Below are positions 25,704 through 28,482 of a stretch of 34,237 bases of DNA, piece after piece (the stretch's first letter is position 1; each line of letters begins with the position of its first letter). The notes beneath the pieces were generated by a model. It was not told the origin of the DNA and did not search any database. It worked only from the letters and a program-made list of their open reading frames with translations. Source of the DNA: a virus; IMG/VR virus record IMGVR_UViG_3300048832_000151, positions 1 through 34,237 of that record. One strand, written 5' to 3'. The translations under genes were made by a program, and so were the position numbers.

Positions 25704-26306
25704 TTAAGTATTGTTGTTGGATGACACGGAGAAGTGGCGTGCCATCTCCGCGCTAAACGTATTGTATACTACGTCATAGAATGGAAAGCTTGGTTCGTAG
25801 TCAACCTTCTCTACGAAGGTCGCGAGCAGGCTTGCGTTTCCGTCGAGGTCGCGCACCAAAACGCTCACCTCTCCATCGCCTCTGTCCTTAAACCACGCGC
25901 GCCCGCTTGCCATCGCCTCGCGTATGGCTCCCCGAGGCAATCCTCCGTACGCCGTCAACTTCGCTTCAGGGCCAGGCACTGCGAGACCGAGTTTTGATGA
26001 CGTGCCTGGGTCACCAGCTTCAAGCGGTCCACCGGAAACCTGCCGCTCATAGAGCCAGTCGGACTGATCCCTGCGGATGAACACCAGGGAGTCGATACCC
26101 CCGCCGAACTCACGGGCTCGAAAACATCCGAATGCGCGCTGTGTCCACGGAACGGGTCGATCAAACGCGGTCAACGTCTCCGCTTCCAACGCCAAGACGC
26201 AGGACAGTGCAACTGCGTCAAGTGCGTTTGACGCGGCGTCTCTAAGGTTTCTGTCAATTAATGTTGGGTTAATATCGTCCGTTTGCTCAATGGCTATCGT
26301 GAGCAT
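25704..26306 (-). CDS. Morphogenesis-like phage protein of unknown role
   Basis: The start used is the ATG at 26306 (MLTIAIEQTDDINP), with GAGGAG 5 nt upstream; 200 residues. The middle, FDRPVPWTQRAFGCFRARE ... SDWLYERQVSGG, then LPRGAIREAM and AWFKDRGDGEVSVLV, follows the pattern of a phage protein family with F-x-RPTPFTxxAF ... YLxxQIxGG, usually found in neck or minor tail regions. Here it stands before the terminase and apart from other virion genes, in DNA of lower GC content. It may be a displaced completion protein or an accessory gene. The resemblance is from memory and moderate. Confidence 0.5.
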   Translation of the reverse strand: MLTIAIEQTDDINPTLIDRNLRDAASNALDAVALSCVLALEAETLTAFDRPVPWTQRAFGCFRAREFGGGIDSLVFIRRDQSDWLYERQVSGGPLEAGDPGTSSKLGLAVPGPEAKLTAYGGLPRGAIREAMASGRAWFKDRGDGEVSVLVRDLDGNASLLATFVEKVDYEPSFPFYDVVYNTFSAEMARHFSVSSNNNT

Positions 26307-26314
26307 TGGACTCC

Positions 26315-26530
26315 TCACATGAGGTGGCTGAGGAGCCTGACAGAGTGGGGTGTCAACCCGTCTGGACATACCTCTGTCAGGATAGGCTGATTATGCGAGT
26401 CGATTGCGCAAGGGACAAGGCCTTGTTTGTGCGTTGGATTCTTCGGAAATCTGACAACCATTGCGAGATAAGGATTTCGTGCTATATACGTAGTAATACC
26501 GATGTTGCTGACCCGCGGAAATTTCCGCAC
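26315..26530 (-). CDS. Possible small leftward gene, doubtful
   Basis: A 71-codon frame starting at GTG (26530) ends at a TGA that abuts the ribosome-binding site of the gene at 26306. No Shine-Dalgarno precedes the GTG, and its first codons lie within a 14-bp palindrome. An internal ATG (MVVRFPKNPTHKQGLVP) also lacks a ribosome-binding site. The only support is the close stop-start spacing to the next gene. The stretch may instead be the 5' leader and control region of the gene at 26306. Confidence 0.22.
   Translation of the reverse strand: MRKFPRVSNIGITTYIARNPYLAMVVRFPKNPTHKQGLVPCAIDSHNQPILTEVCPDGLTPHSVRLLSHLM
26515..26528. promoter_or_regulatory. 14-bp palindrome GCGGAAATTTCCGC, candidate operator
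   Basis: Perfect palindrome about 210 bp upstream of the start at 26306, next to AT-rich TATATA (26483-26488), which could be a -10 on either strand. The stretch 26307-26842 otherwise holds no well-supported gene. Confidence 0.45.
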
Positions 26531-26754
26531 TTTTGCAACTGAGTCGCAAGCGTCACCTAAGGTTTTGGCAAATAACGTATTTCAGCAGGTTGCGCCCTTG
26601 GAGAGAAAATCACCTTCATGATGTCAAGGGCTTTCTCGCTCTATCTGTTTATTGATGATACCTAAACATAAGAAGGGTACGCTTTTTCTTGTAGCAGGAA
26701 CCGATCGGGCTTGTTACTGTGCAGCCGCAGGGTCGACGAATCGATCCACGTGGT

Positions 26755-26803
26755 CCGCTCCTCACTCACGAGATCTGCCGACATGGTGTCGGCAGAGGAG
26801 CGG
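26755..26803 (+). other. Nested inverted repeats, structured 5' leader candidate
   Basis: CCGCTCCTC (26755-26763) pairs with GAGGAGCGG (26795-26803). Inside it CTGCCGACA (26775-26783) pairs with TGTCGGCAG (26787-26795) over a TGG loop, with an 11-nt bulge on one side. The shared base at 26795 can serve only one stem. The structure ends 40 bp before the small gene at 26843 and would form in its mRNA leader, or it may be a stand-alone RNA. It matches no riboswitch class I know. Confidence 0.45.
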
Positions 26804-26842
26804 CGGGCTCCCCCCGTCACGTGGTATCGAAAGGGATCAGCA

Positions 26843-26983
26843 ATGATTGCTGTTTCGTCGTTATCCTGCCCGATCAACCAGCCGGTGCGCGTTCGCGAAT
26901 ACCGGCGGTTCCGGTACGGCCGCCTGGAGAGTGTCCGGGCGTACTGCCGGCGGCTGCCCAACCAGTGGGTTGGACAGCCGTAA
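26843..26983 (+). CDS. 46-residue basic protein, opposite strand to its surroundings
   Basis: The ATG at 26843 has AAGGGA about 7 nt upstream. The product runs MIAVSSLSCPINQPVRVREY, then RRFRYGRLESVRAYCRR and LPNQWVGQP; it is strongly basic with two Cys residues. I know no family. It is rightward while both flanking gene blocks are leftward, follows a structured leader, and its last codons form the stem of the first of two terminators. Such an isolated unit looks like a phage moron. Alternatively the transcript is a structured RNA and the reading frame is incidental. A promoter could not be identified. Confidence 0.4.
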   Translation: MIAVSSLSCPINQPVRVREYRRFRYGRLESVRAYCRRLPNQWVGQP

Positions 26984-27040
26984 CAGGCGGTTTTTTTCTG
27001 GGACTTGGGGGGCAAGCTTCGGCTTGCCCCTTCTTTTTTT
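26951..27040 (+). terminator. Tandem intrinsic terminators
   Basis: First hairpin: CGGCTG and CCAACC (26951-26963, one mismatch between) pair with GGTTGG and CAGCCG (26968-26980), with T7 at 26991-26997. Second: GGGGCAAGC-TTCG-GCTTGCCCC (27009-27030) with a UUCG-type tetraloop and TTCTTTTTTT, a textbook rho-independent terminator. They end rightward transcription of the unit at 26843. Confidence 0.85.
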
Positions 27041-27302
27041 GCGACTCAATCTTGCATTATCGAGGTTTAAGTATCAAGCGCTAATTCGTGCCTTGAGACG
27101 AATTTACGATTAAATCGGCTTCATAGTTTCAATACGATCTTCGTAAGCATTCGCATCGAATTTACGATTAAATTCGCATTCAAGGGTTCAATTCATTGAA
27201 AATTCTAGAATCAAGAAATTCGAAGCGTTCCACGAACATATCTAAGTCTTTAATTAAAATCGGCGGTTTCAAAATCACAACCTTAGCCTCATCCGGATTG
27301 GA
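27041..27302. repeat. AT-rich gene-free region with 17-bp direct repeat
   Basis: This stretch is far more AT-rich than the rest of the window and has no credible gene. CGAATTTACGATTAAAT occurs at 27099-27115 and again at 27157-27173, 58 bp apart. Shorter AAATTCG/CGAATTT words and AATTCATTGAAAATTCTAG-like AT tracts fill the rest. Repeats plus low helix stability could mark a replication origin, a regulatory region or an older insertion scar. It follows the terminators at 26951-27040 and the end of the leftward early operon. Confidence 0.5.
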
Positions 27303-27923
27303 TCATGCGTCCGACATCGGCACATTTTCGCCGTATCGTTCGTAATTTGGCCTACGGCTTGTAATCTGGTGCCAACCCTGCAATTCCGCGAACAAATCCA
27401 ATGCCTTTCGGCACAGCGTCCCGGTGCGTCGTTGGCCTGTGCCCAGCCGCGCTGCCGCGACGTTGCACGGGATCGCCTCTCCGGCGACAAGCAATGCCGG
27501 TCGATAATCGAGTCCGCGACGTTGGCATGCATCAATCCAACGATTGACGCGCTTGCGGTCGCGGGCGGCAATATCGCTCCACCCCACAGAATTCGGATCG
27601 AACGCACCGCCGACGGACGCATGCATGCGGATCAGATCGACACCACGCAGCCCAGACCGCTCCATCATCCCAGACCTGATCGCCACGCCGGCACTCAACT
27701 GCGCGGGTGTCAACGACATCCTCAGCAGCGGATCGCGGCTCAATTGCCACGGCGTCGCCTGTACCGTCGATGCCGCCGCCTCCTTCTTCTCGCGTACCAG
27801 ACCCACCGCCCGCATCCGGCGCCTAACCGTTCTGGTCGTCACGCAGAAATGCTTGGCGATCTGCTTTTGAGACAAGCCGTCTTGCATGAGTCTTTCGAGG
27901 TCGCCGCGGGAAATCTCGATCAC
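27303..27923 (-). CDS. HTH phage regulator with DUF6456-like C-terminal domain
   Basis: The start used is the GTG at 27923 with GGAG 7 nt upstream; 206 residues. Residues about 8-40 (LERLMQDGLSQKQIAKHFCV, then TTRTVRRRMRAVGL) form a clear helix-turn-helix. The C-terminal part has LTPAQLSAGVAIRSGMME, RVNRWIDACQRRGLDYRP and TGTLCRKALDLFAELQGW, a layout like the alphaproteobacterial DUF6456 domain (L-x-x-x-Q-L ... G-L ... LxxALDxLAxxYG). It is the last gene of the leftward early operon, beside an AT-rich repeat region it might bind. A role as transcription regulator or replication-associated protein is inference. Confidence 0.55.
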   Translation of the reverse strand: MIEISRGDLERLMQDGLSQKQIAKHFCVTTRTVRRRMRAVGLVREKKEAAASTVQATPWQLSRDPLLRMSLTPAQLSAGVAIRSGMMERSGLRGVDLIRMHASVGGAFDPNSVGWSDIAARDRKRVNRWIDACQRRGLDYRPALLVAGEAIPCNVAAARLGTGQRRTGTLCRKALDLFAELQGWHQITSRRPNYERYGENVPMSDA

Positions 27924-27945
27924 GCCGTCGCTCCAAAATAATTCA

Positions 27946-27969
27946 GGCGTCGGGCAGGTGTCCGACGCC
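27946..27969 (-). terminator. Hairpin, weak terminator or attenuator
   Basis: GGCGTCGG (27946-27953) pairs with CCGACGCC (27962-27969). On the minus strand TGAATTATTTT follows. It lies between the interrupted coiled-coil gene (stop 28003) and the regulator start at 27923, so it could reduce expression of the regulator. Confidence 0.45.
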
Positions 27970-28002
27970 TCAACAATAATGGTCAGGCCGGCAAGGCGTG
28001 AG

Positions 28003-28482
28003 CTATTTAGCCGCGTCAGCGGCGCGTCGCCTCGCGAGATCGTCGATTGCTTGTTCGAGAAGATCCCAGCAATCGAAGTTGTCTCCCCGCAATCCCCATC
28101 CGAGTTTTTCGGATATTTTTCCGAGACATCTTTCGGAAATACGTTGAACTCTACGCGCTTGATCGGCGTCCAGATTAACGTCGATGATCTCGGATTTTGC
28201 TGTCTGCAATTCGTTGAAGTATTTATCCTTGAGTGCATATAGTTCTTTGTTATCGAATTCCAGCCGTCTTGTCACACGCTTCAATCTCTCGATTTCTTCG
28301 TCCTTCTCCGCGTCGCCCCTCTCGCCCTCACGCATCCGCACGATCCGCGCCCTGATCGCCTCGTCTCCAAGCGCATCGCGCAGCGTGCCGACCGGCGCCG
28401 TCCCGCTCGCGATCTTCGCCCTGATCTCCTCGATCGCGGCGTTGGTCCGCTAGGCGATCTCGTCCTTGTTCCTGTCCGTCAT
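28003..28482 (-). pseudogene. Coiled-coil gene interrupted by an in-frame amber codon
   Basis: An ATG at 28482 has GGGGAG 8 nt upstream and encodes MTDRNKDEIA. Codon 11 is TAG (28450-28452), after which the same frame runs on (RTNAAIEEIRAKIASGTAPV) for 149 codons to the stop at 28003. The body is a charged coiled coil (DEEIERLKRVTRRLEFDNKE) with a C-terminal segment KLGWGLRGDNFDCWDLLEQA. Later restarts (GTG 28341, ATG 28335) lack a Shine-Dalgarno. CAG to TAG is one transition. The gene is thus disabled, or translated by amber suppression, or wrongly sequenced at that base. Family unknown; it may be an early regulatory or DNA-associated protein. Confidence 0.65.

Follow-up and report, generated by a model that had tools for sequence, protein, structure and literature searches.

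The window analysed here is an IMG/VR virus record (IMGVR_UViG_3300048832_000151) of 34 kb (34,237 nucleotides). In it, leftward packaging genes for the large and small terminase subunits precede a minor-tail-like gene (25704-26369), also leftward, whose product matches phrog_1924 (minor tail protein). A rightward (+) unit at 26741-27040 comes next, and beyond it lies another leftward gene, at 27303-28238. An earlier note on this DNA, made from the letters alone, had described a unit on the strand opposite to both neighbours, and that is the arrangement found. The unit as a whole has a predicted fold of -152.9 kcal/mol (z -6.06), and its features are collected in Table 1. Scanning of the window gave no convincing sigma-70-like promoter upstream of the unit, and the DNA of 26400-27300 had no similarity to sequenced phages. 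On the 3' side of the unit, an AT-rich stretch at 27098-27178 carries GAATTTACGATTAAAT twice at a spacing of about 60 nt, possibly an operator or origin-like element.

Table 1. Features of the rightward unit, in window coordinates
Feature	Position	Strand	Basis
P1 5' arm, outer leader stem	26741..26753	+	MFE fold, pairs with 26817-26824 and 26826-26830; counterpart of covarying P1 in relatives
P2 (26755-26763/26795-26803, 3' end GGAGCGG) around hairpin 26774-26783/26787-26796	26755..26803	+	Perfect repeats, MFE fold
P3 hairpin CGGG-CUCCC-CCCG, immediately 3' of GGAGCGG	26804..26816	+	MFE fold; aligned to P3 of models R2/R3
P1 3' arm (26817-26830) into Shine-Dalgarno AAAGGG (26830-26835)	26817..26835	+	Sequence, fold
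46-aa gene, phrog_21154 family, predicted Arg-rich beta-hairpin protein	26843..26983	+	Profile matches, AlphaFold2
13-bp hairpin at 3' end of coding sequence, closing just 5' of the stop codon	26951..26980	+	Repeats, fold
Candidate first terminator: CAGGCGG (partner CCGCCTG, 26920-26926), then seven T	26984..26997	+	Sequence, fold; weak local site 26976-26992
Canonical intrinsic terminator (second): 11 pairs, then C and T7	27007..27040	+	Terminator scan; stem 27007-27032

Nested perfect inverted repeats had been claimed for the leader, and three pairs of arms are present, all without mismatch: an outer pair CCACGTG/CACGTGG (26746-26752/26818-26824), a middle pair CCGCTCCTC/GAGGAGCGG inside it (26755-26763/26795-26803), and an innermost pair TCTGCCGACA/TGTCGGCAGA (26774-26783/26787-26796). 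For the leader the predicted fold has -49.9 kcal/mol (z -3.79), and none of 200 shuffled sequences did equally well. The exact P2 repeat, used as a pattern in viral contigs, occurred at 22 places, all unrelated. The 3' end departs somewhat from the earlier description, in which two strong terminators closed the unit. The second, with its stem at 27007-27032 and U-run, is canonical, whereas the first is weaker than claimed. It is either a weak local stem (26976-26992) or, with pairing at long range, CCGCCTG/CAGGCGG (26920-26926/26984-26990) ahead of a run of seven T. Between the hairpin at 26951-26980 and the 3' arm at 26984-26990 sits the TAA stop codon (26981-26983), so that its supposed merging with a terminator stem holds only loosely: it adjoins both stems but lies just outside the hairpin.

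The open reading frame at 26843-26983 encodes MIAVSSLSCPINQPVRVREYRRFRYGRLESVRAYCRRLPNQWVGQP, with 9 Arg and 2 Glu (net charge about +7), and the Shine-Dalgarno sequence AAAGGG is situated 7 nt 5' of the ATG; the short basic protein with a good ribosome-binding site, 46 codons long, is thus as first described. Its product matches phrog_21154 (E 3.6e-5; residues 13-40 on profile positions 19-46 of 47), as do all 37 aligned relatives, and a profile of 215 relatives from which the window had been left out matched the window peptide at E 7.8e-18, with no other significant match. In alignment A1 the invariant positions are V, Y, R, G, E, V and R, and the window peptide fits the core V-x-V-x2-Y-x-R-x-R-x-G-R-x-E-x-V-x2-H-x-R save for a Y at the nearly invariant H34. 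AlphaFold2, run on the same alignment, predicted four short strands with a mean pLDDT of 80 and a core near 95; a search of the PDB with this predicted structure gave no significant likeness, and the family had no match in Pfam, NCBIfam or PDB. Judged by this sequence conservation, the frame is a real, conserved gene, and its product a new member of a known, uncharacterised family. A tblastn search with the window peptide gave no match, for which the low-complexity filter is the likely cause, and a limited search of the literature for the PHROG number or the peptide motifs found nothing.

An IUPAC pattern of the peptide core, searched in IMG/VR and GTDB genomes, returned more than 100 loci (a lower bound), most of which encode proteins of 28-60 aa with the same terminal motif. 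In Proteobacteria and Bacilli, relatives are found on prophages, on plasmids and in genomes, mostly without annotation, and their named hosts include Bradyrhizobium, Azospirillum, Sinorhizobium, Pseudomonas, Xanthomonas, Burkholderiales and Lysinibacillus; the Bacteroidales peptides, with a longer N-terminal part, are look-alikes. By eye, the peptides closest to that of the window (SCPINQPV...) are those of Bradyrhizobium, Beijerinckiaceae and Sinorhizobium, which makes a host of the Rhizobiales type likely for the phage. Prompted by a control match, we also searched eight E. coli K-12 prophage regions, and no family member was present in them. In four loci (L065, L066, L292 and L330) the peptide gene is present as two divergent copies, which in L065 and L066 are separated by about 300 nt.

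The earlier note had offered a structured non-coding RNA as an alternative to a protein-coding gene, and the comparison does not support this reading in place of the gene. The leader and the whole unit do have very stable folds, and the 3' part resembles the suhB (E 1.6e-4) and SorY (E 1.7e-3) sRNAs in Rfam, both below the gathering score and mostly through the terminator; we judged these sub-threshold matches to be terminator-driven. However, the peptide is conserved over several bacterial classes (the E 7.8e-18 given above), while the nucleotide sequence has no phage match. Because the reading frame is conserved, and the RNA structure in the relatives is the 5' leader of the peptide, we regard an RNA product with an incidental reading frame as very improbable.

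Stems P1, P2 and P3 form a three-way junction in the leaders of about 35 relatives. Within the 100 nt 5' of the start codon, the 3' side of P1 carries the Shine-Dalgarno sequence, a long P2 ends in GGAGC, and a short P3 is closed by GG..CC. Over 688 kb, a covariance model built from 5 sequences (R1) had 25 matches, of which 23 or 24 lay immediately 5' of a peptide gene, and it was extended to models R2 and R3, from 23 and 30 sequences. The covariation search with homologous sequences that the earlier note had proposed thus revealed compensatory changes, with 25 of 26 leader pairs changing on both sides in the R2 and R3 alignments. Paired cells made up 91.5% and 89.5% of these alignments, compared to about 68-70% in shuffles, none of 500 of which was as good, although the alignments were fitted to the structure and the pair counts are flattered accordingly; sliding the pair partner abolished the covariation signal. 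Homologues with conserved stems and with a conserved peptide, the lack of which was to count against the unit, are therefore both found among the relatives.

Outside its building set, R2 gave 17 matches in 90 sources, 11 of them directly at a leader, window included; one match off the peptide, at 2615-2730 of L219, was inspected and judged to be chance. R3, using the RNA alone, gave two matches below 1e-6 in 240 alphaproteobacterial genomes, with the peptide on the 3' side of both, and one of the two was a previously unseen genome (G076). In 347 genomes of the order to which L116 belongs, it yielded one further match (3.7e-4), which had no peptide and was taken as chance, whereas the peptide profile was positive in 13 of the same genomes. 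R3 therefore misses most leaders of this order, several of which appear by eye as a stem around two hairpins. Rfam gave no match at gathering score for the leader or the unit, and a structured-RNA survey that was checked for the leader yielded none; the leader is an RNA class with no Rfam entry, and a limited search did not find it in the literature.

Other kinds of leader recur as well. Gammaproteobacterial-type relatives (L226, L231, L249, L277, L296 and others) have GGGCAA(N)nAAACCCTCCA and then a hairpin in which the Shine-Dalgarno sequence TGGAGGG is paired. The Bacteroidales look-alikes (L095, L107, L172, L180 and others) have their own consensus, CCGAGGGGAGGTACTGAAACA...GTTCTT(T)ACA, before the longer peptides. 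In L228, L237, L242, L253, L257 and L288, a leader of the type GACGATAGCAGA...GCGAGTCCATAACTGCCGA stands before peptides of the form CPIVRPVHVCAYTRMRRG.

The window leader scored only 14.3 bits (E 0.17) and 14.8 bits (E 0.07) against the models when the whole window was searched, ranking second to a chance site within the structural genes. This weak score, together with a stretch between the P2 arms that departs from the consensus, is what could be expected if the window and the relatives had just the peptide in common, and the window leader were a stable structure unrelated to theirs. We consider that rather unlikely, since the held-out leader was matched at the exact expected place and strand, as the second best site in the 68 kb searched. 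It also keeps the P1-P2-P3 order directly 5' of the start codon, both in the MFE fold and in the model alignments, and its GGAGC ... CGGGCUC ... CCCG run was aligned to the models. A match at this fixed position is unlikely to arise by chance, at about 1 in 1000 by our own estimate, which is uncorrected for the leader's unusual stability. On these model alignments, the window leader is probably a divergent member of the three-way-junction class.

The genomic setting of the relatives was compared with that of control genes from the same loci. A terminator lay 3' of the gene in 62 of 146 relatives, compared to 7 of 129 controls (42% vs 5%), the median z of the leader was -1.75 as opposed to -0.36, and promoter-like sites were found in 17% and 4%, respectively. 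Pairing of the Shine-Dalgarno region over all relatives hardly differed from that of the controls (0.66 vs 0.63, p 0.2), leaving a general occlusion of this site across the family unsupported. The same applies to the idea that the gene usually opposes both of its neighbours, which it does in 31 of 144 relatives; its orientation is close to random, unlike that of ordinary phage genes. The neighbours are genes of immunity, integration and cargo zones, among them integrases, repressors and ImmA/IrrE proteases (Peptidase_M78), as well as candidate defence genes such as the AAA_13 component of the candidate system PDC-S06, RmrA, BstA and PrrC-like genes. Because of these terminators, structured leaders, promoter-like sites, cargo neighbours and the near-random orientation, we conclude that the relatives behave as an autonomous cassette.

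The earlier note had suggested a moron encoding a tiny effector. A moron coding for a tiny protein is well supported by the mobile-element distribution of the peptide family, its absence from records with related terminases, the terminators, the leaders and the neighbours, and the effector role is putative. As to function, the favoured guess is that the protein binds nucleic acid and serves in defence, exclusion or regulation. In the window, the unit has its own terminator and lies between modules, and seven records with related terminases, fragments among them, gave no match to the phrog_21154 profile; synteny based on the terminase reached distant phages only, which lack the gene. Given the coding conservation, the covariation in relatives, the terminators and the cargo setting, we think it likely that the unit is a moron, a cargo cassette in which the leader controls translation of a predicted Arg-rich beta-hairpin microprotein. 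Such a gene would have been inserted between the late and early modules of a tailed phage; its transcription would run counter to that of both neighbours and stop at terminators of its own, and its product would be a 46-residue microprotein of the phrog_21154 family. Its 5' leader of about 100 nt is predicted to fold as a three-way junction. Because the outer stem ends at the Shine-Dalgarno sequence, leader folding probably sets translation initiation, whether through a switch, an RNA-binding protein or the product itself. The microprotein may in turn bind nucleic acid and take part in prophage-host or phage-phage interactions.

Were the product itself responsible, the unit would be an autogenous regulator, with the Arg-rich beta hairpin binding its own leader junction (the conserved GGAGC beside P3 closed by GG..CC) and shutting off its own translation; the peptide may also bind similar host or rival RNAs. 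The co-occurrence of leader and peptide, the net charge of about +7 with the beta-hairpin model, and the conserved stem and loop of P3 agree with this, but other relatives have quite different leaders, which is unexpected for a fixed RNA target, and we hold autogenous control to be a possible but doubtful explanation. A metabolite- or stress-sensing, riboswitch-like leader with the peptide as its effector seems improbable: a covarying three-way junction with conserved loop letters 5' of the start codon would suit it, yet Rfam gives no match, the leader type differs within the peptide family, and no ligand can be proposed. We tentatively raise the possibility, itself unlikely, of an undescribed RNA-microprotein module of mobile elements, in which the three-way-junction leader senses a host or phage signal and controls a tiny Arg-rich beta-hairpin protein; in conflicts between phages, or between phage and host, this protein would act on nucleic acid or on ribosomes.

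Among known systems, phrog_21154 is the family to which the window peptide belongs, although the entry has no assigned function and does not cover the structured leader. The best structure match, not significant, was H0092 of phage VT2-Sa (UniProt Q9KXF6), with 41% identity over 27 columns and rmsd 1.5. The peptide-family motif is present in AMBK_50 of Salmonella phage vB_SosS_Oslo, which, unlike the window unit, is placed between cI and N in a lambdoid phage; both proteins are annotated as hypothetical only. A 5' leader that is structured, covaries and ends at the ribosome-binding site recalls ribosomal-protein leaders and riboswitches by analogy, but no Rfam family matches the leader, and we do not claim membership.

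The finding holds up, and reaches further than the window's letters alone could show. Annotation nearly always overlooks this widespread peptide family: besides the 13 of 347 sampled genomes of one order, one lineage of the family is present in 232 of 5426 complete E. coli genomes, with no annotated feature at any of the 12 places listed, and there are 123 plasmid records with the gene, unannotated in all 30 listed. A covarying leader RNA, absent from Rfam, accompanies the peptide in many phages, and if that leader is regulatory and the protein active in host or phage conflict, the unit would be a compact RNA-controlled cargo module. On enterobacterial plasmids the peptide gene is convergent (tail to tail) with an AAA ATPase gene, with HEPN, hsdR-named or DUF4145 genes nearby. 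A convergent 730-aa AAA ATPase recurs in L033, L055, L056, L058 and L297-L299, and AAA_13 proteins near the peptide genes match the candidate defence system PDC-S06.
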